Made by a program: the position numbers and the translations under genes. Source: Eubacteriaceae bacterium (lineage in GTDB: Bacteria; Bacillota; Clostridia; Eubacteriales; Eubacteriaceae). From it: a DNA stretch of 42,924 nt. This document shows, one piece after another, positions 2,291 through 22,161 of this stretch; within the stretch, counting starts at the first letter, position 1; each line of letters begins with the position of its first letter. Below the pieces are notes generated by a model. The model did no database searches. It was not told the origin of the DNA and worked only from the letters and a program-made list of their open reading frames with translations. The stretch is from the NCBI GenBank assembly GCA_028705955.1, contig JAQWCN010000003.1, positions 1-42,924 of the forward strand. Reading direction: 5' to 3'.

Positions 2291-4810
2291 TTACCGCACG
2301 TATACCGGCGTCCCTTCCGGGAAGATACTGTACAACTCTGCCATGGATTCAAGCGGCGTATTGACACAACCGTGGGAACCATCATAGAGGTAAATGTTGC
2401 CACCATACCCGCTGCTGCGCCAGGTCGAATCGTGAATTCCTATATCGTTGCCCACAAAAGGCATCCAGTAGTTGACGTAAGCCCGGTACCCGGGGCCAAC
2501 CAGATAAGATGGGCTTTCTTTACTATTGACGACAAAATCACCCCGGGGCGTATCCAGAGAATTGGCCATTCCTGTGACCACCGGTGTCATGACCACCCGC
2601 TGGTTATTGACATACCCTTCCAGTGTCTGACCGCCGATATCAATACAAATACAGGTATCAGACAAAGGCATCCAGCCAAAATCTTTCTGAATCACATGAA
2701 TATAATGGCTTTCTGTTGACCCCGGCGCCGCCGCACCTTTTCTGACGAGTTTGATGTTAATGGCTTCCATTTGCAGATTGCCGTCCGACGTGCCGGCCCA
2801 CTCGCCATTCTTGGCCCAGCCGAGCCAACCGTAATTTTGAACGTGGACTTGATAATAAATATCAAAAATTTGGGAAGCCTCTCCATTTAAAGCGATTTGG
2901 AATGCCTCCATGTGTTTGTGCTGACCGGTGGTCCCGGCCACCTGATTCTGGCCGACCCATCCCTGCCAGCCGATATCCTGGCAGTACGCCTGGTAAGATA
3001 CACTCGAACTTTGAGCAAGCATGCCTTCCAGTTTACACTGAATTGCTTCGACAGCCAAACCTTGTCCTACCGTTCCCGCTGTCACCCCATTTGCCCGGAA
3101 ACCCTGCCAGCCAATATTGGTAACATGGGTCTGATAAGCGATGTTGGAATGGCCGAGAAGATAATCTGCATTAATATACGGACGGTCCGTACTTCCCGGC
3201 GCCGCTTCCCCTTTAGGGACCAATTGAATTTCAATAGCTTCCATCTGGTACCCTAATTGAGAGGTTCCTGCGGATTCTCCATTCTTTGCCCAATCGAGCC
3301 AGCCATAATTTTGAACATGAGCCCGGTAATACACATCGTATTCTTTTGACAATGGCGAATCCAGTTTAATCTCAATGGCTTCCATTTGAAGGGCACGCCC
3401 CACCGTTCCACTGAGTTGTCCGTTATTTTTCCAACTTGTCCAGCCGATGTTTTGAATATGGGTCCGGTAAGAGATGCCTGTTCCCGCCGGTAAATTATCC
3501 GCTGTGGCTGAAATTTTAATGGCTTCCATTTGCTGGCCTTTTCCAACCGTCCCGGAAGTTTCACCGTCTTTAACGGCACTCTGCCACCCCACATTGCCAA
3601 CGTGACTTTGATACGAAACGGTTCCGTTTGTAAACATGGAAGGATCGATATGGGCCCGTGTCGTGGCTCCCGGGGCCTCTCCGCCCTTTGCCACAATTTG
3701 AATCTGAACCGCTTCTACACGGTATGCCAAATCCCGGGTCCCTGCTTCTTCGCCATTTTTTGCCCAATCCAGCCAACCGTAATTTTCAACATGAACTCTG
3801 TAATAAATATCAAAGAACTGGGCCTGATCGCCGGTCAGCTCCATTTTCACTGCTTCAGTCCGAAGTTTTTTTCCTTCGGTTCCGGCCATTTGCCCGTCCT
3901 TTACCGCACCTTGCCAGCCATAATTTTCAACATAAGCCTCATAGCTGATACCCAGGGCACTGGCTTCCTGTCCAGTGGAAATTTTAAGGGCTTCAACCCG
4001 TTCAGCTTTTCCGGTGGTTCCCGCAGTTTTACCCAGGGATACTGGTTTCATCCACCCTTCGTTTTCAACATGGGCCTGGTATGTAAAGGTCTTGTTAATG
4101 TCATCCAAAGACAAGGTCTGTTTTACATCGTTCACGGTAACCGTTTGGTCGGCGTTTAACCCATCGATTTTTGCCGTTATGGTTGTCGTTCCCGCAGCCA
4201 CTGCTGTTATTTTTCCATCCTGATCCACCGTTGCAACGGCCGGATCAGTGCTACTCCAGCTCACTGCGGTGCTGTCGTCAAAAAACGCCGGTTTGGATGC
4301 CAGACTGGCCTGACTGTTTTGACCAACCGCCAGGGATGCCGGATCAACCTTTACCGTAACGCCTTGTGTATTAACCGTTACGCCGTTTCCAGTGGCAAAG
4401 GTTTCCGCCGCACTGCCCGCATTGCAATAAAAGGTCACCGCGTTTTCCAAAACCGATGGGGATGGGGATGGCGTCGCACTGTCCTTTGGTGTCAATGCCC
4501 CGGCATCAATGGCTAAGACACTATCTGGAATCACGACGTTCTTGATAGAAGCTTCCCCCAGAGCTCCTGCTCCGATTCCGGTGACCGCATAATCCTGATT
4601 ATTGGCCGATATTTTTTCGGGAACCATCACGTTTTCGGTATTGCCGGCTGCCGTCAAACTGACCTGGCCGTCCTGGGTGACTGTGTACGTCAATCCCTCC
4701 ACACTGATTGTGTTGTTTTCTGTCTGATCCGCTGCCCAGACCGCACCGCCGCTAAATGTCAGCAGGCCAAAGACCAGTGTCAAAAGGATTGCCCATTTTT
4801 GATGTTTCAT
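2291..4810 (-). CDS. Secreted L,D-transpeptidase with Big2 and nine ChW repeats
   Basis: An 839-aa exported wall protein. Signal peptide 1-27 (cut after AVWA). Residues 36-105 resemble a BspA-type leucine-rich fragment. A bacterial Ig-like 2 domain spans about 152-227. Nine ChW repeats (about 242-690; core HVxNxGWxxWxxNGxxAGT) are arranged as three triads, each ending in a KGxxAPG linker. The YkuD catalytic domain is 703-839 with His793 and SHGCVN (Cys815). YkuD enzymes make 3-3 peptidoglycan cross-links or attach proteins to wall peptides; ChW repeats are thought to bind extracellular ligands. HGCVN rather than HGCIR suggests a clostridial YkuD subgroup. The start has a GGAGAGG site and an extended -10 TATAAT at 4851-4856. 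Confidence 0.92.
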   Translation of the reverse strand: MKHQKWAILLTLVFGLLTFSGGAVWAADQTENNTISVEGLTYTVTQDGQVSLTAAGNTENVMVPEKISANNQDYAVTGIGAGALGEASIKNVVIPDSVLAIDAGALTPKDSATPSPSPSVLENAVTFYCNAGSAAETFATGNGVTVNTQGVTVKVDPASLAVGQNSQASLASKPAFFDDSTAVSWSSTDPAVATVDQDGKITAVAAGTTTITAKIDGLNADQTVTVNDVKQTLSLDDINKTFTYQAHVENEGWMKPVSLGKTAGTTGKAERVEALKISTGQEASALGISYEAYVENYGWQGAVKDGQMAGTEGKKLRTEAVKMELTGDQAQFFDIYYRVHVENYGWLDWAKNGEEAGTRDLAYRVEAVQIQIVAKGGEAPGATTRAHIDPSMFTNGTVSYQSHVGNVGWQSAVKDGETSGTVGKGQQMEAIKISATADNLPAGTGISYRTHIQNIGWTSWKNNGQLSGTVGRALQMEAIEIKLDSPLSKEYDVYYRAHVQNYGWLDWAKNGESAGTSQLGYQMEAIEIQLVPKGEAAPGSTDRPYINADYLLGHSNIAYQTHVTNIGWQGFRANGVTAGTVGQGLAVEAIQCKLEGMLAQSSSVSYQAYCQDIGWQGWVGQNQVAGTTGQHKHMEAFQIALNGEASQIFDIYYQVHVQNYGWLGWAKNGEWAGTSDGNLQMEAINIKLVRKGAAAPGSTESHYIHVIQKDFGWMPLSDTCICIDIGGQTLEGYVNNQRVVMTPVVTGMANSLDTPRGDFVVNSKESPSYLVGPGYRAYVNYWMPFVGNDIGIHDSTWRSSGYGGNIYLYDGSHGCVNTPLESMAELYSIFPEGTPVYVR

Positions 4811-12390: not shown

Positions 12391-12876
12391 ATGGCAAAGT
12401 ACTATAATAAACAGGATTTAGTTAAAATATTACAAAACAAAGCAGATGCGCTGGGCCGGATGCCCAAACCGGAAGACCTTGACAACGCCTCTGTTCAGGC
12501 TGTGTTGTCTTATTTTAAAAAATGGAATAAGGCCCTTAAAACGGTGAAACCTGCCGCCGTTTCAAACCATTTACAGGCAGCGCATAATTCAAAGAAAAAG
12601 AATCATCCCAAACCTGCGAAAAAAATTGAAAAAACTGTTTCAGAAAAAAAACCAGAACCAGAAAAAAATACGAAACAGGATGCTGTATCTCACGGCCGTC
12701 GCCGTTATTCCAAATCCATCATTACCCAAATGCTGCTTGACGAATTTAACCGCTTGGGTAAAAAACCGACCCGAAAAGAAATTGACGAAAACAAAAATCT
12801 TCCTACCGTGGCCACATGTTTAAATTATTTTGATACGACACGAATCGGAGATGTTTGGAACGAAATTTTAAAATAA
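12391..12876 (+). CDS. Small protein with two homing-endonuclease-associated (HNH_repeat) modules
   Basis: A basic 161-aa protein. Two related modules flank a Lys/Glu-rich linker (about residues 68-100): residues about 3-56 (DLVKILQNKADALGRMPKPED ... YFKKWNKAL in pattern) and 106-160 (LLDEFNRLGKKPTRKEI ... YFDTTRIGDVWNEIL in pattern). The G-R/K-x-P-x-x-x-(D/E) and F/Y-xx-W signatures match the HNH_repeat DNA-contact module found beside HNH nucleases. No nuclease domain is present, so it may be a stand-alone DNA-binding protein. TGGAGGAATT precedes the ATG; the gene has its own promoter and terminator. Confidence 0.72.
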   Translation: MAKYYNKQDLVKILQNKADALGRMPKPEDLDNASVQAVLSYFKKWNKALKTVKPAAVSNHLQAAHNSKKKNHPKPAKKIEKTVSEKKPEPEKNTKQDAVSHGRRRYSKSIITQMLLDEFNRLGKKPTRKEIDENKNLPTVATCLNYFDTTRIGDVWNEILK

Positions 12877-14483: not shown

Positions 14484-16196
14484 TTATTTTGCCTGCTTCT
14501 TTGACTTTTTCGTTTTTTTAGACATCTCAAGCATTTCGGCGGCATGTTCCACCGTCTTTTTGGTCACCTTGGCGCCACTGATCATCCGCGCCAATTCATC
14601 CCGGCTTTCTTCGGGGGACAACTGTGCGAAGTCAACTTCCACCGATTCATCATCCATGGATTTTTCAACCCGGAAATGCCGGTCAGCCATCGCCGTAATC
14701 TGAGGCAAATGCGTGATGCAAATAATCTGTCTTTTTTGGCTTAACCCCATTATTTTTTCCGCCACTGTCTGCGCTGTCCGCCCACTGATGCCTGTATCAA
14801 TCTCATCAAAGATCATCGTTTCAATATGATCCATGGCTCCAAAAATCGATTTGACGGCCAGCATAATCCGGGAAATTTCCCCACCGGAGGCGACTTTTTT
14901 AAGCGGCCCTGGTGCGACACCAGGATTGACCGAGATCCAAAAGGACACGGTATCATTCCCCCAGGGTGCAATGACCTGGGCGTCTTCTTCAACCCGGATT
15001 TGCACATTGGCCTTATCCATAGCCAGATCTGCAAGTTCTGTTTCCAAATCCTTTTTCAAACGACCCGCAGCCTCTGTCCGGGCAGCATGAAGATCGGAAG
15101 CGCTCTTCCGGTATTGGCGCCACAGTATTTTGTATTCCGCTTTATTTTGTTCCAAATCATCATCGTGGTGGGCCAACCGGTCGTATTTGTCCTGAAGCTC
15201 CTGCCCGTAAGCCATGATATCATCCACAGTCGCCCCGTATTTTCGTTTCAGACCATCGATCACCGCCATTCGCTTTTCCACCACTTCCAGCCGGGCCGGG
15301 TCAAAATCCATGGTATCCAGATACCGGCTCAGTTCAAGGCCCAAATCCTCCAGGTCTCCCGTTGCCGACGACAATGACGTCAAGTAAGGACTGAACTGAT
15401 CATCAATGGCTGCAATACGTCCAATCCGGTCAGCCACCTGAGCCAGGGAGGTAAGCAACCCGGAATTTTCCATCTCATCCCCATTTAAAAGCTCACAGGC
15501 TTCGTTGGCTGTGGAAAAAAGCTGCTCACCGTTCTCCAAAATCCGCCGTTCCTTTTCCAGCTGATTGTCTTCACCGGAAACCAGTTCTGCCTTTCTGATA
15601 TCCTTCAGCTCAAAAGCATAGATTTCTTTTTGGCGCATCAATTCCCGGTCATCCTTTTCTTGCTCCCGGATGGTCTTATTTAAAATCTTAAGCCGCGTGG
15701 CCTGGTCCCGGGTTTCATCGAGCAGCCTGGCCACCGCTTGACCGCCGTATGCGTCCAACAGACGCCGCTGGGTTTCATTTAAAAATAATGAATTCTGTTC
15801 GTGCTGACTGTAAATATCAACCAGTGTCGCCCCTAAACTTTTGAGTTGGGCCACCGTCAGTGAAAAACCGTTAGCCCGGCACTGATTACGTCCCCGGCGG
15901 TCGATAGAACGGGTCAGAATCAGATCGCCATCCTCTACCTCAATGGCCATGGCGTCCAGTAAATTGAGAAGGGCCTCATTTTTTCCCACGCCAAAAACGC
16001 CCTGAACCACCATTTTTCCAGCACCATGACGGATGTTGTCTTTGTTGCCCCGCTGACCTAAAATAAGGGTCAGTGCGTCGATGACAATTGATTTTCCAGC
16101 GCCGGTTTCACCTGTAATGACATTAAGCCCCTGATTCCATTCAATTTCCAGGGTTTCGATTAAGGCATAGTTTTTTATGGAAATCCGTTTTAACAT
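14484..16196 (-). CDS. recN: DNA repair protein RecN
   Basis: 570-aa SMC-like ATPase involved in double-strand break repair. Walker A GETGAGKS at about 30-37, long coiled-coil arms (about 150-370), the ABC signature SGGEISR near 445 and Walker B MIFDEIDTGISG, followed by ICITHLPQIT. The C-terminus ends in a Lys-rich tail. GGAGTGAG precedes the ATG. It is last in the oapA-tlyA-nadK-argR-recN gene run, which is the usual Firmicute order. Confidence 0.97.
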   Translation of the reverse strand: MLKRISIKNYALIETLEIEWNQGLNVITGETGAGKSIVIDALTLILGQRGNKDNIRHGAGKMVVQGVFGVGKNEALLNLLDAMAIEVEDGDLILTRSIDRRGRNQCRANGFSLTVAQLKSLGATLVDIYSQHEQNSLFLNETQRRLLDAYGGQAVARLLDETRDQATRLKILNKTIREQEKDDRELMRQKEIYAFELKDIRKAELVSGEDNQLEKERRILENGEQLFSTANEACELLNGDEMENSGLLTSLAQVADRIGRIAAIDDQFSPYLTSLSSATGDLEDLGLELSRYLDTMDFDPARLEVVEKRMAVIDGLKRKYGATVDDIMAYGQELQDKYDRLAHHDDDLEQNKAEYKILWRQYRKSASDLHAARTEAAGRLKKDLETELADLAMDKANVQIRVEEDAQVIAPWGNDTVSFWISVNPGVAPGPLKKVASGGEISRIMLAVKSIFGAMDHIETMIFDEIDTGISGRTAQTVAEKIMGLSQKRQIICITHLPQITAMADRHFRVEKSMDDESVEVDFAQLSPEESRDELARMISGAKVTKKTVEHAAEMLEMSKKTKKSKKQAK

Positions 16197-16211: not shown

Positions 16212-16661
16212 TTATTTCATCAACTTTCGAAAACGTTCGGCAATGCTCACCACGTCTTCTTCATTGCGGACAGCCACAAAAATAGTATCGTCCCCGGCAA
16301 TGGTTCCAACAATTTCCCGCCATTCCATACCGTCGATGGCCAATGCGGCTGCCTGGGCCATGGCCGGGAGCGTGTGAAGCACCACCAAAAATGCGGCTGT
16401 ATCCACCGTTAAGACCGACTCTGTAAAGACAGTAGCTACCCGTTCATCGTACAGTGTCCCCATGTCTTTCATGGAAGCGTAGCATTGACGGCCACCTTTT
16501 CCCGCCACTTTAATCAGTTTGAGTTCTTTAATATCTCTGGAGACCGTCGCCTGCGTCACATGGAAGCCTTCAACCTTTAAATGTGAAGCCAGCTCTTCCT
16601 GGGTTTCAATCTGATAATTTTCAATAATCTCCAAAATTTTCGATTGTCGTGAAACTTTCAT
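16212..16661 (-). CDS. argR: Arginine repressor
   Basis: 149 aa. N-terminal winged helix with TQEELASHLKVEGFHVTQATVSRDIKEL and a C-terminal hexamerisation/arginine-binding domain (VLHTLPAMAQAAALAID, then GTIAGDDTIFVA). ArgR/AhrC controls arginine synthesis and breakdown with arginine as corepressor. GGGAGGG precedes the ATG. Its place beside recN is conserved in Firmicutes, and no arginine genes are adjacent. Confidence 0.96.
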   Translation of the reverse strand: MKVSRQSKILEIIENYQIETQEELASHLKVEGFHVTQATVSRDIKELKLIKVAGKGGRQCYASMKDMGTLYDERVATVFTESVLTVDTAAFLVVLHTLPAMAQAAALAIDGMEWREIVGTIAGDDTIFVAVRNEEDVVSIAERFRKLMK

Positions 16662-16681: not shown

Positions 16682-17542
16682 TTATTCTGTGCTGGATGAC
16701 AGTTTTTTGCGCAACCGCTTAAAAAAGTGCATATCTTCAAAATGGATTAAATGGGTATAATGGGGTGACCGGCTAACCTCCACCTTGTCCTGGGGCCCCA
16801 CCGGAATCGTGATCTGTCCGTCCATACACACTGCGATACTATTGGAACGGCCCCTAAATTGAATGCCGACTGTACTTTCACCCGAAACCACATAGGCCCG
16901 GTCATGGAGGCGGTGTGGACAAATCGGATTCACCAGTATGGCATCCGTTCCCGGGGCCACCACAGGCCCTCCCGCAGCAAGGGAATACGCGGTCGAACCC
17001 GTTGGCGTCGCGATGATAACCCCGTCGGCCCGAAAGGTATCCAGCGGTTCACCGTCAATGACGATACTCATTTCCATCATGCGAAAACTGCCGCTTTTGA
17101 TTAGCACATCGTTGAGCGCGATTTGCGTTTCTGTGGATCCATCGGCCTTGATGATTTTTCCGTTGAGCATCATCCGCCGGTCGATTTCATAATCCCCTGC
17201 GCAAAGCTTGTCCAATACTTCTTCGTAACTGGTAGTTTCCCCTTCTGTCAAAAATCCCAGTTTTCCCAAATTAATCCCGCATAAGGGGATTCCTGATTCG
17301 CTGGCATGTCGGGCCACCCCCAGTAATGTTCCATCGCCCCCCAAGGTCACAATGCACTCCGGTTCCGAAAAAAAGACATCTTTTGTAACGCCTTGAACAT
17401 CGAAGATATTATTAATCTCCTGAAGTTGGCTAATCAACATCACCGGTTTAACACCCCGGGCCTTTAAAAAAGCGATACAGCGCCCGGCCATTGCCACGCT
17501 GTCCGCTTTGTCACAATTCATATGGATCGCGATTTCCTTCAT
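16682..17542 (-). CDS. nadK: NAD kinase
   Basis: 286 aa. Phosphorylates NAD to NADP. The catalytic GGDGTLL at about 68-74 is followed by GINLGKLGFLTE, then the substrate motif ATPTGSTAYSLAAGGP. The ATG overlaps the stop of tlyA by one or two bases, indicating coupled translation. Confidence 0.96.
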   Translation of the reverse strand: MKEIAIHMNCDKADSVAMAGRCIAFLKARGVKPVMLISQLQEINNIFDVQGVTKDVFFSEPECIVTLGGDGTLLGVARHASESGIPLCGINLGKLGFLTEGETTSYEEVLDKLCAGDYEIDRRMMLNGKIIKADGSTETQIALNDVLIKSGSFRMMEMSIVIDGEPLDTFRADGVIIATPTGSTAYSLAAGGPVVAPGTDAILVNPICPHRLHDRAYVVSGESTVGIQFRGRSNSIAVCMDGQITIPVGPQDKVEVSRSPHYTHLIHFEDMHFFKRLRKKLSSSTE

Positions 17543-18381
17543 TAACTGTCCTTCCTGTATAACGTGTCATGGGCCCTGGCAACGAGATCTTTAACCGCTT
17601 GTTTTCCCGCGATAGCTTCATTGAGGACCGCACCGTTCTGTTTTTGTGTCAAACATAAAAACTCGATGTTTCCCTTTGGTCCCCGAATGGGAGAATAATC
17701 CAACCCCAATACCGCAAAGCCTGCCTCTGTAATCCCCGCTGTCACCCGGGTCAACACCGCTTCGTGAATGGCGGCGTCCCGGATGACACCGTGTTTGCCC
17801 ACATGATCCTTTCCCGCTTCAAACTGGGGCTTGATGAGCCAAATTCCCTTGCCGCCTTCTTCGGTCAGCGCGTAAATTGCCGGCATCAATTTAAGAATAG
17901 AAATGAAAGAAACATCCATCACAGTGCCCCAGGCGGGCGTTCCCCCAATCGCGTCCAATGTCATATACCTGAAATTGGTGCGTTCCATGCAAACCACCCG
18001 GCTATCGTTGCGCAGTGACCAGTCAAACTGACCGTATCCCACATCGATCGCCCAAACTTTCTTTGCCCCGTGCTGAAGCAGACAATCGGTAAACCCTCCA
18101 GTGGATGCGCCAATATCCAAAAACGTTTTATTTTTTACCGGGAAATCAAAAACATCAAGCCCCCTGGCCAATTTTAATCCTCCGCGACTGACAAAGGGAA
18201 GGGGATCTCCCTTAATCTTTACATGCGCCGGTTCCAAATCTACCGGAATTTGATCGCCTGCTTTGGTATGAATTTGGCCATCAATTTCAACCATACCGGC
18301 CATGATTGCTTTTTTTGCCTTTTCCCGGGTTTCAAAAAGTCCCAGTGCCACCAGGCATTTATCCAAACGTTCTTTTTTCAT
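17542..18381 (-). CDS. tlyA: TlyA family rRNA methyltransferase (YqxC-like)
   Basis: 279 aa. N-terminal S4 RNA-binding domain (residues 1-60, RLDKCLVALGLFETREKAKKAI in pattern) and a class I SAM methyltransferase with DIGASTGGFTDCLLQ at about 88-102. TlyA proteins 2'-O-methylate 16S/23S rRNA; the older name 'hemolysin' is misleading. The start abuts the oapA stop (18382), so both are in one operon. dxs, often upstream of tlyA in Clostridia, is absent here; OLE/oapA occupy that place. Confidence 0.94.
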   Translation of the reverse strand: MKKERLDKCLVALGLFETREKAKKAIMAGMVEIDGQIHTKAGDQIPVDLEPAHVKIKGDPLPFVSRGGLKLARGLDVFDFPVKNKTFLDIGASTGGFTDCLLQHGAKKVWAIDVGYGQFDWSLRNDSRVVCMERTNFRYMTLDAIGGTPAWGTVMDVSFISILKLMPAIYALTEEGGKGIWLIKPQFEAGKDHVGKHGVIRDAAIHEAVLTRVTAGITEAGFAVLGLDYSPIRGPKGNIEFLCLTQKQNGAVLNEAIAGKQAVKDLVARAHDTLYRKDS

Positions 18382-18966
18382 CTATTCCTGTCCTTTAAAC
18401 ATCATTTTTACTGTTGCCACCGGTACCGCGATCCCATGAACAATTGCCGTCCCGTTCTGCATGGCAATGTCCTTGCCAAATGCTTTCCCGCCCACTGTCA
18501 GACAGGCCACAGCCGCACTGGATGCCAAACTTAAAATGGAAGCATTCAGAAGTGGATAATGCGCCACCAATTGGGCTGCGATATTCACAACAATGGCCCC
18601 ACTGACAATACCGCAAATATCCCCAATGACATCATTACAAACATTGGAGACCCGGGGCGCATTTTTAACCAAATTTACAGCTGTTTTGGCGCCCTTGATC
18701 TTCTTGGCGGCCATCGCGTTAAACGGATCGATCGTCACCGACGCCACCGCTATCCCAATGATATCGGTAAAAATACCAAGGGCAATAATCACAAACAATA
18801 AAATAAGAGAAAACACCAAATTGGTATGGGTAAGCAGCGTATCTGAAATGTACGTAATGACAATTGTAGATAAAAAAGTGCCCACTGTAACCCAAATGAC
18901 CCAATGCTGATGTTTTTTCCCGTTGATTTCTTTTTTTGATAATTTTTTCTTTTGCTCGTCTTTCAA
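18382..18966 (-). CDS. oapA: OLE-associated membrane protein OapA
   Basis: A 194-aa membrane protein with about four hydrophobic segments after a short basic N-terminus. The centre has SNVCNDVIGDICGIVSG, giving the DxxxD pattern (DVIGD) that I recall from OapA proteins. It is identified mainly by location: it directly follows the OLE RNA and precedes tlyA, exactly as ole-oapA is placed in Bacillus halodurans relatives. OapA recruits OLE RNA to the membrane. Start: TTG at 18966, 5 bases past GGAGA; a TTG at 18978 would overlap that site. Similar proteins are sometimes labelled CorB-like. A hairpin terminator lies between the RNA and this gene. Confidence 0.85.
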   Translation of the reverse strand: MKDEQKKKLSKKEINGKKHQHWVIWVTVGTFLSTIVITYISDTLLTHTNLVFSLILLFVIIALGIFTDIIGIAVASVTIDPFNAMAAKKIKGAKTAVNLVKNAPRVSNVCNDVIGDICGIVSGAIVVNIAAQLVAHYPLLNASILSLASSAAVACLTVGGKAFGKDIAMQNGTAIVHGIAVPVATVKMMFKGQE

Positions 18967-18985
18967 ATTTTTCTCCAAAATAGTG

Positions 18986-19012
18986 AAAAAGGATTATGCC
19001 GCGCATAATCCT
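18986..19012 (-). terminator. Hairpin with T tract between OLE RNA and oapA
   Basis: Minus strand: AGGATTATGC pairs perfectly with GCATAATCCT across a 3-nt loop, followed by five T. It starts 5 bp past the OLE closing helix and ends 20 bp before the oapA start. It should define the RNA 3' end, with oapA made by read-through. Confidence 0.85.
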
Positions 19013-19017
19013 CGATA

Positions 19018-19642
19018 GGTGGTGATATAATGAGTAAACTTTGCGACATAGGTTCAGTAGGATTTCCCGGAATGTGACTGATGCGTCGCCGCTTCAGCGG
19101 TTTCCCTTTACACTTTCCCCACACTGTCACCAGACATGGGACTGAATTACCACTTAGTGTGCACTATAATCCCCATTACACCTCTTTCGAACAGCCTAGG
19201 GGTTTTCCCCGACGGCTCAAGCCGGTCCTTAGCCTCTTTTGCAATAAAGGTTTCGAACGCAATATTCCCAACGCACCGGGCCCTGGTTTACCGGGAACTG
19301 TCAGTCCATCTCCCCCCATCACTCAAGGCAGGCTACACTGGTTCAGAATTTTCGGGGCCACAATAGCCCTCAACTCATTCCCAGGTTTTCCCTGGAGCAC
19401 TGCGCAGCTTGTTGCGCAAAATACGCTGAATTGTTACACTGCTACACGTGGAATCCAGGTCTCCACGGAAGCAGGGTCGTCATCTGCATGCCGTTGCAGA
19501 TTGCCCCATCTTCCTTAACCCCCTGTCAATGCCCTCAACTGGGCGTCAAAGGCAGAAACAAGGGACTTCATCGATATGCCCTTCGACGGATTTTTAGGCC
19601 CGCCCTGGTGACCGGTCAAGCCGACTAGGATACTGCACCACC
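19018..19642 (-). ncRNA. ole: OLE RNA (ornate large extremophilic RNA)
   Basis: A structured noncoding RNA of about 625 nt. The 5' end GGTGGTG (19642-19636) pairs with CACCACC (19024-19018), giving the closing helix. Internal hairpins include CCGC-TGAA-GCGG (near 19091-19102), CAGG-GAAAA-CCTG (near 19381-19395) and GGGG-AAAA-CCCC (near 19198-19211). It has its own promoter (19652-19680) and a 3' hairpin. Size (OLE is about 600 nt), dense structure, no credible coding frame, and position before oapA-tlyA-nadK-argR-recN all match OLE. Known role: with OapA it forms a membrane-bound ribonucleoprotein needed for resistance to short-chain alcohols and cold. The assignment is by structure and context; no covariance model was run. 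Confidence 0.9.
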
Positions 19643-19651
19643 TTTAAAATA

Positions 19652-19680
19652 ATTATAACACCAATGCATCCCAACCACAA
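19652..19680 (-). promoter_or_regulatory. Promoter of OLE RNA
   Basis: Minus strand: TTGTGG (19680-19675), 17-bp spacer, TATAAT (19657-19652). Predicted start near 19645, 3 bases before the first base of the closing helix. Confidence 0.75.
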
Positions 19681-19720: not shown

Positions 19721-19744
19721 TAAGAAAAAATGAATGGAGAAAAC

Positions 19745-20410
19745 ATGGGCTATCAAGAAGATTTTATCGATTTTATGGTGCGCTCCGGCGTTCTGACTTT
19801 TGGGGATTTTATAACCAAAAGCGGCCGCAAAACACCTTACTTTGTCAACACCGGCAACTATCAAACTGCTGAACAAATTGCCAAACTCGGGCAATACTAC
19901 GCAGCCTGTATCGCAGAGCATCTTTCGGGAATTGATTTTCTTTACGGCCCCGCCTATAAAGGCATTCCCCTGGTCATCGCCGCTGCCACTTCCCTGTACC
20001 GGGATCACAATATTAACATTCCCTATTGCTTTAACCGCAAAGAAGCAAAAGACCACGGTGAAGGGGGCAGCCTCATTGGGTACAAGCCGCAAGCCGGCGA
20101 TCACGCCATGATCATCGAAGATGTCATCACTGCCGGCACCTCGGTTAAAGAAAGTGTTCCCCTTCTCAAATCCATTGCCGATGTATCCGTTGACGCCCTT
20201 ATTATCTCCGTCGACCGGATGGAAAAAGGAGACGGTGACCAAACCGCCATTCAGGAAATTGCCGGCAGCTTTGGCATCACCACCACTCCCATCGTCACCA
20301 TTTTGGATATTGTTTCCCATTTACACAACCATCCAGTAGACGGCCGGATTATCATCGACGATGCCATGCAAGCACAAATCAAAAAACATTTGGAACGTTA
20401 CGGAGCTTGA
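19745..20410 (+). CDS. pyrE: Orotate phosphoribosyltransferase
   Basis: 221 aa. Joins orotate and PRPP to make OMP in pyrimidine synthesis. The PRPP-binding motif MIIEDVITAGTSVKES is near residue 122; the N-terminal GDFITKSGRKTPYFVN is typical of OPRTases of this length. The ATG at 19745 follows TGGAGA; an in-frame ATG at 19730 overlaps the likely transcription start. No other pyr gene adjoins it. Confidence 0.95.
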   Translation: MGYQEDFIDFMVRSGVLTFGDFITKSGRKTPYFVNTGNYQTAEQIAKLGQYYAACIAEHLSGIDFLYGPAYKGIPLVIAAATSLYRDHNINIPYCFNRKEAKDHGEGGSLIGYKPQAGDHAMIIEDVITAGTSVKESVPLLKSIADVSVDALIISVDRMEKGDGDQTAIQEIAGSFGITTTPIVTILDIVSHLHNHPVDGRIIIDDAMQAQIKKHLERYGA

Positions 20411-21069: not shown

Positions 21070-22161
21070 TTAAACATCCATCCGCAGTGTCGCGTTCATA
21101 AACTGATCCAGATCGCCATCCATCACCGATTGAATATTGCCAACTTCGACGCCGGTGCGATGGTCCTTAACCATGGTATAAGGATGAAAAACATAAGATC
21201 TGATTTGAGAACCCCAGGCAATCTGGCTGTAATCCCCAACAATATCTTCCAGTTTTTCCTTTTTTTCCTGTTCCATGATATCGACCAATTTCGACTTCAG
21301 CATATTCATCGCCACTTCTTTATTTTGATGCTGGCTCCGTTCATTCTGACACTGGACCACCACACCGGTGGGAATATGGGTAATTCTGATTGCCGAAGAG
21401 GTTTTATTAACATGTTGTCCACCGGCACCGCTTGAACGATAGGTATCCACCCGAATATCATCCGGATTAATTTCTATTTCCACACTGTCGTCCACCTGGG
21501 GTGACACGTCCAGAGACGCAAAGGATGTATGCCGCCTGCCGGATGAATCAAAGGGGGAAATTCTCACCAGACGGTGAACGCCCCGTTCCGTTTTAAGATA
21601 TCCGTAGGCATTGATGCCTTCAATGAGCAGCGTCGCACTGTTGATGCCCGCCACATCCCCGGGTTGTAAATCCAAAGTTTTGACCTTATATCCCTTGGCT
21701 TCCGCCCAACGGGTATACATTCTTAGCAGCATCTCTGCCCAGTCATGGGATTCTGTTCCACCTGCGCCTGGATGAAGGGAGATAATCGCATTGTTGCTGT
21801 CATATTCTCCTGATAAGAGTGTCTCCAGTTTAAAGGACTCAAATTTTTTGCCGTATACTTCCAGCGTCTTGGGAAGTTCGTCAACCGCTTCCCCTTCTTC
21901 TGCCAGTTCCAACATGACATTCACATCATCCAGATCATCTTTGATTTCGTCATAACGGTTGCGTTTTAAACGCAGAATCTTCTGCTCTTTTAAAACCTTC
22001 TGGGCTTTTTGCTGGTCGTTCCAAAATTCAGGATCTTCTGTCGTGCGCTCCAATACTTCCAAACGTTTATCGATACCCGGAAGATCCAAAGACTTGCCCA
22101 ATGCATCCAACTCGGTTTCCATTTCTCCAGCCTGTTGACGGCATTCATACAAATCGATCAA
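21070..22161 (-). CDS. prfB: Peptide chain release factor 2 (no programmed frameshift)
   Basis: 363 aa. Terminates translation at UGA and UAA. It has the GGQ loop in SSGAGGQHVNKTSSAIRI and the N-terminal PEFWNDQQKAQKVL of RF2. Many prfB genes need a +1 frameshift near codon 26 at CTTTGA. Here the segment SLDLP reads straight through as TCT TTG GAT CTT, so no internal stop exists. Start TTG at 22161, with AAAGGA upstream. secA-prfB order is common in Firmicutes. Confidence 0.95.
   Translation of the reverse strand: MIDLYECRQQAGEMETELDALGKSLDLPGIDKRLEVLERTTEDPEFWNDQQKAQKVLKEQKILRLKRNRYDEIKDDLDDVNVMLELAEEGEAVDELPKTLEVYGKKFESFKLETLLSGEYDSNNAIISLHPGAGGTESHDWAEMLLRMYTRWAEAKGYKVKTLDLQPGDVAGINSATLLIEGINAYGYLKTERGVHRLVRISPFDSSGRRHTSFASLDVSPQVDDSVEIEINPDDIRVDTYRSSGAGGQHVNKTSSAIRITHIPTGVVVQCQNERSQHQNKEVAMNMLKSKLVDIMEQEKKEKLEDIVGDYSQIAWGSQIRSYVFHPYTMVKDHRTGVEVGNIQSVMDGDLDQFMNATLRMDV

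Follow-up and report, generated by a model that had tools for sequence, protein, structure and literature searches.

A genuine and complete copy of the OLE RNA, a large RNA of a well-known kind that resides with the protein OapA in bacterial membranes, here from a genus within the Eubacterium family that is still undescribed, is located on the minus strand of the window, the term used for the whole 42,924-nucleotide stretch of contig JAQWCN010000003.1 (Eubacteriaceae bacterium) that was analysed. An Rfam cmscan search of the whole window matched OLE (RF01071) at 19657-19003 (-) with a score of 442.2 bits against a gathering cut-off of 50 bits and an E-value of 9.8e-127, the match covering the complete model from position 1 to 616. 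The score also exceeds the 390 bits that define 'full-length' OLE in PMC11332333, though a different model was used there. The initial annotation had named OLE at this position and had set the covariance-model search in advance as the test of that identity, a test passed by a very wide margin. The RNA, predicted at roughly 625 nt between GGTGGTG and CACCACC and ending at a perfect hairpin, measures 627 nt with both closing strands located, and a 10-bp hairpin with a T run lies 3' of it. The E-value together with the compensatory base changes described below excludes chance. At a probability of roughly 0.9, the locus as a whole is explained by a full-length OLE RNA and OapA, with the RNA under its own promoter and terminator, that would form a membrane dimer with the help of OapB and OapC and adjust the cell to stress. 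The features of the locus and its surroundings are as follows.

19652-19680, minus strand: ole promoter, extended -10 element TGTTATAAT at 19660-19652 and -35 element TTGTGG at 19680-19675 (sequence)
19643-19017, minus strand: OLE RNA, P1 strand to P1 strand, 627 nt (RF01071 and covariation)
19636-19643, minus strand: P1 5' strand, AGGTGGTG (covariation)
19388-19458 (approximate limits), minus strand: extended P7 with the GTGTAACAA / GCAACAAGC element (motif count and six-sequence alignment)
19017-19024, minus strand: P1 3' strand, CACCACCT (covariation)
18990-19012, minus strand: hairpin resembling an intrinsic terminator, 10 bp with a GCG loop, between ole and oapA; T run ends at 18986 (sequence)
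18382-18966, minus strand: oapA, 194 aa, TTG start at 18966, GGAG at 18976-18973 (OapA alignment, DVIGD, CNNM-like fold)
17542-18381, minus strand: tlyA, rRNA methyltransferase (TIGR00478, FtsJ/S4)
16682-17542, minus strand: nadK, NAD kinase (Pfam NAD_kinase)
16212-16661, minus strand: argR (NF001680, TIGR01529)
14484-16196, minus strand: recN (TIGR00634)
19730-20410, plus strand: pyrE, divergent upstream neighbour of ole, outside the system (TIGR00336)

The closing helix P1 pairs GGTGGTG at 19642-19636 with CACCACC at 19024-19018 (-). P1 is absent from the structure line of the Rfam OLE model. Pairing was observed in 96.5% of cells, with 39 double-change cells versus 10.0 ± 2.5 in shuffles, and slid controls fell far below the real register. 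The compensatory forms include GGTGGTG/CACCACC in the window, AAGGAAG/TTTCCTT in genus g5 and AGATGAC/GTCATCT in genome G021. Over the whole structure, double changes were found in 90 of the 158 predicted pairs in an alignment of 29 OLE sequences. P1 is proven as the closing helix by these compensatory changes; since the published OLE model already places P1 in domain 2 (PMC12265935), the result is a confirmation and not a discovery.

The loops predicted to mediate dimerization are likewise preserved in sequence. The L9 loop is self-complementary in all 29 relatives, with a GGCC or AGCT core tetramer extended to a hexamer in most, and that of the window agrees with the published OLE kissing loop (PMC12286853). 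The sequence TAAAAAT of L4 is invariant in the aligned OLE RNAs, and the putative k-turn strands near P5 for binding of OapC, TCGATGAAG and GTGGAGAC, are present in the window and in nearly all relatives. Lengths were compared among 65 distinct motif-anchored OLE RNAs, a set that leaves out RNAs breaking the motif chain and so favours canonical ones. Of these, 61 have 26 nt in the 5' strand of P3 plus P4 (SD 0.25) and 63 have 21 or 22 nt in the 3' strand of P3, with far greater spread in P7 (SD 27) and P8 (SD 12); the pairs of P3.1 vary freely, with compensatory changes. The constant length of P3 fits its proposed span of the membrane (PMC12265935). The dimer-contact stem P5.1 is as constant in length as P3, so that constant length alone is no proof of a membrane span. 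P6 of the window OLE carries GGAAG and not GGAGG, and a perfect anti-Shine-Dalgarno mimic in P6 was rejected as a general OLE feature because GGAGG occurs in only 7 of 29 sequences. Thus P1, the length of P3 and the dimer loop are constant across the family, and P7, P8 and the P6 mimic are free to vary.

P7 of the window is 71 nt long and holds GTGTAACAA...GCAACAAGC. The same element (GTGTARCAA...GCARCAAGC) was seen in the window and in L102, L106, L108, L109 and L004, and of 59 distinct OLE RNAs 6 have the two motifs together, all of them from genera g1, g4 and g5. An alignment of the six gives weak support for an inner hairpin with a conserved internal loop. In the tree of OapA and TlyA the three genera group with E. 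barkeri, which itself lacks the P7 insert; the order of branches within that group is weak (54), which leaves room for a single gain. Since P7 takes no part in the dimer contacts of the published OLE model (PMC12265935), the added element is probably accessory.

The promoter-like site upstream of the RNA had been described as a consensus promoter, which holds for the perfect extended -10 element and fails for the poor -35 element, TTGTGG, which matches 3 of 6 consensus bases at a spacer of 17 bases. A consensus promoter scan of the window did not list the site, the weak -35 element being the reason. TGnTATAAT is found at the ole promoter position in 22 of 29 aligned OLE loci. The terminator-like hairpin is composed of AGGATTATGC-GCG-GCATAATCCT (19012-18990) followed by the T run, and a hairpin with T run follows OLE in 26 of the 29 loci, two of them doubtful. 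The flanking of ole by promoter and terminator in most of the family argues that ole is, as read from these elements, its own transcription unit. In Anaerofustis stercorihominis oapA (L011 6019-6570) and ole (L142) lie on different contigs and ole is flanked by a promoter-like site of its own and by a strong terminator, further indicating that ole works as a separate gene. That species had been a candidate for OapA without OLE, none lying beside oapA, until ole was found on the other contig; nine further loci that seemed free of OLE in a motif search all proved OLE-positive with the covariance model.

The gene following the RNA was proposed in the initial annotation to encode OapA on account of a DxxxD pattern in a membrane protein. 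GGAG lies six bases upstream of the TTG start, and the deduced protein contains DVIGD at residues 112-116, as do 36 of 36 relatives, to which it is 37-67% identical. The protein has hydrophobic stretches and an all-helical AlphaFold2 model (pLDDT 87.4). The six best PDB matches of the model are all CNNM/CorB/CorC Mg2+ transporters (probability 0.99-1.00, best E 3.9e-3, none of the E-values at or below 0.001), in line with the CNNM-type fold comparison already published for OapA of H. halodurans (PMC11332333). No Pfam or NCBIfam name was obtained above cut-off; the CNNM profile gave 18.2 bits against a cut-off of 28.4, and the 194 residues hold no further domain and no CBS. The full-length OLE match together with an OapA carrying the invariant DVIGD and a CNNM-like predicted fold thus identifies the known ole-oapA locus. 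All four genes placed downstream, tlyA, nadK, argR and recN, were borne out by profile matches. ArgR has been named as a candidate OLE partner on the basis of unpublished data (PMC12265935).

Other observations were made elsewhere in the window. A T-box leader (107.8 bits) at 333-591 precedes a sodium:solute symporter gene at 611-2200, which indicates an amino-acid-controlled transporter. Positions 2291-4810 encode a secreted 839-aa protein with nine ChW (clostridial hydrophobic W) repeats and Ig-like and L,D-transpeptidase domains, and 12391-12876 (+) encodes a small stand-alone protein with a homing-endonuclease associated repeat (HNH_repeat). The prfB gene for release factor 2 (21070-22161) apparently reads as a single frame that lacks the programmed +1 frameshift typical of this gene.

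The host is the sole genome of genus g1 among the 40 Eubacteriaceae genomes examined, 23 of which contain OLE; its draft genome (2.01 Mb, 245 contigs, 87.65% complete) contains a single OLE copy. The search for oapB and oapC that had been suggested recovered both. The gene for OapB (98 aa) lies between map and infA, and its product matches the solved OLE-associated protein B (PDB 7k9b) with an E-value of 2.4e-11; OapC (YbxF), an 82-aa L7Ae-type k-turn protein encoded upstream of rpsL, matches YbxF with an E-value of 1.7e-8. The reported OLE partner bS21 was not found in the 87.65% complete draft. Since bS21 is present in all 48 good-quality relatives, a true loss was set aside in favour of a likely assembly gap. 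No CNNM protein other than OapA itself was found in the host draft genome, and MpfA was not detected there. Within the family, MpfA was undetected in 14 of 23 OLE-bearing versus 1 of 14 OLE-less genomes, counts that are not independent since the genomes are related and that are in line with the published anticorrelation of OLE and MpfA. Spo0A was absent from all 37 Eubacteriaceae genomes searched, most of which carry OLE, and the sister families are Spo0A-positive. OLE correlates with sporulation across Bacillota (PMC11332333); in contrast, OLE in this family is not tied to sporulation.

Three other explanations were weighed. The structured region could act mainly in cis as a leader or attenuator of oapA-tlyA-nadK-argR, for which the terminator-like hairpin before oapA could allow controlled read-through. 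However, the gene order after OLE varies, with tlyA in Acetobacterium and the window but another long gene in its place in L014 and L010, the OLE of Anaerofustis is not near oapA, and in H. halodurans OLE exists as a free RNA in abundance (PMC9723947), so that a leader in place of a free RNA is improbable. Even less probable is a decaying, non-functional copy. The P6 without a perfect anti-Shine-Dalgarno mimic and the failure to find bS21 would be expected of such a copy, but the match is full-length, the conserved loops, OapA and the partners are intact, and E. limosum-like genomes pair bS21 with a similar P6. The frame on the opposite strand (19081-19518), although open over 145 codons, was rejected as a gene because base changes among relatives follow the RNA pairing and indels break the frame; of the three, a real gene there deserves the least credence.

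The preferred reading of a full-length OLE with OapA was compared with the systems already studied. The window resembles OLE/OapA of H. halodurans (PMC9723947, PMC11332333) in the complete RNA model, the position of ole before oapA, the DxxxD, the presence of OapB and OapC and the failure to detect MpfA. It differs in a longer P7 with an added element, an imperfect SD/ASD mimic in P6, a host family without Spo0A and an ole with its own terminator before oapA. With the OLE of C. acetobutylicum and C. botulinum resolved by cryo-EM (PMC12286853, PMC12265935) it shares the L4 A-run, the self-complementary L9, the k-turn strands and the constant length of P3, whereas P7 of the window is much longer and its RNA is known from sequence alone. 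OapA shares a predicted membrane fold and weak profile similarity with the MpfA/CorC/CNNM Mg2+ transporters, but differs from them in carrying DxxxD, in lacking CBS and CorC domains and in scoring below the CNNM cut-off.

From these comparisons a mechanism may be proposed in which the extended -10 promoter drives OLE RNA and most transcripts would stop at its own terminator, with OapA supplied in smaller amounts by some read-through; a terminator placed ahead of oapA points to an excess of OLE RNA over OapA. Two OLE RNAs would dimerize via the A-run of L4 and the self-complementary loop L9, as in the species studied, and an OapA dimer would hold the OLE dimer in the membrane with the help of OapB and OapC. 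The particle would adjust the cell to cold, alcohols, Mg2+ and poor carbon sources, most likely with OapA acting on divalent ions in the manner of CNNM proteins. The host itself shows the OLE RNA with its fold and dimer-loop sequences, as well as OapA, OapB and OapC; we infer the dimer and the membrane location from H. halodurans and from the cryo-EM of clostridial OLE, and the stress role in this host is carried over from another species. Since MpfA is not detectable in the host, OapA-OLE may be its only CNNM-type divalent-ion device. The alcohol and glycan traits of the host, raised in the initial annotation, are not evidence for OLE function.

Within Acetobacterium (g3), OLE is present in 5 of 19 genomes. 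The order in A. paludosum (G029) is ispA-ole-oapA-tlyA, and ispA and tlyA are immediate neighbours, in that order, in those OLE-less Acetobacterium loci of which the full sequence was read. In a tlyA-nadK tree the OLE carriers lie on two branches around a woodii-like clade (supports 97 and 80), a pattern most simply explained by a loss of OLE in the woodii-like clade; a second absence within the genus is that of G009/G034. The carriers G028 and G027 are probably A. bakii and A. tundrae, and the carrier G030 may be A. fimetarium. None of the single-contig Acetobacterium genomes contains OLE, and A. woodii, which has a closed genome, must accordingly be among them. The temperature comparison comprised A. 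bakii, A. paludosum, A. fimetarium, A. tundrae and A. woodii, G031 being without a growth temperature. Growth at 1 C is on record for A. bakii, A. paludosum and A. fimetarium (PMC6239172), the title of a work cited in PMC6925170 calls A. tundrae psychrophilic, and A. woodii is mesophilic (PMC4582577). Mesophiles elsewhere in Eubacteriaceae retain OLE. Tentatively, ole-oapA may have been ancestral in Acetobacterium, kept in the cold-growers and, within the mesophilic woodii-like clade, cleanly lost from the ispA-tlyA junction, with OLE in this genus maintained mainly by selection for growth at low temperature, an account that is possible rather than likely. A literature search found no paper combining 'OLE RNA' and 'Acetobacterium'.

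OLE is among the largest structured RNAs of bacteria, and the copy in the window adds an undescribed genus. The novelty is modest in that OLE is already known from about 2,800 genomes (2,822 Bacillota genomes in PMC11332333); apparently new are the P7 subdomain of three genera, OLE across a family without Spo0A, and the split between retention and loss in Acetobacterium. Eubacteriaceae allow comparisons beyond the model species, of OLE without Spo0A and of OLE with and without MpfA. The split in Acetobacterium is the lead most worth following. It amounts to a natural experiment on the role of OLE in the cold, although only one or two independent events underlie it, and it sets sister species with OLE against those that lack it at a gene junction that is otherwise the same, in cultivated acetogens with differing growth in the cold.
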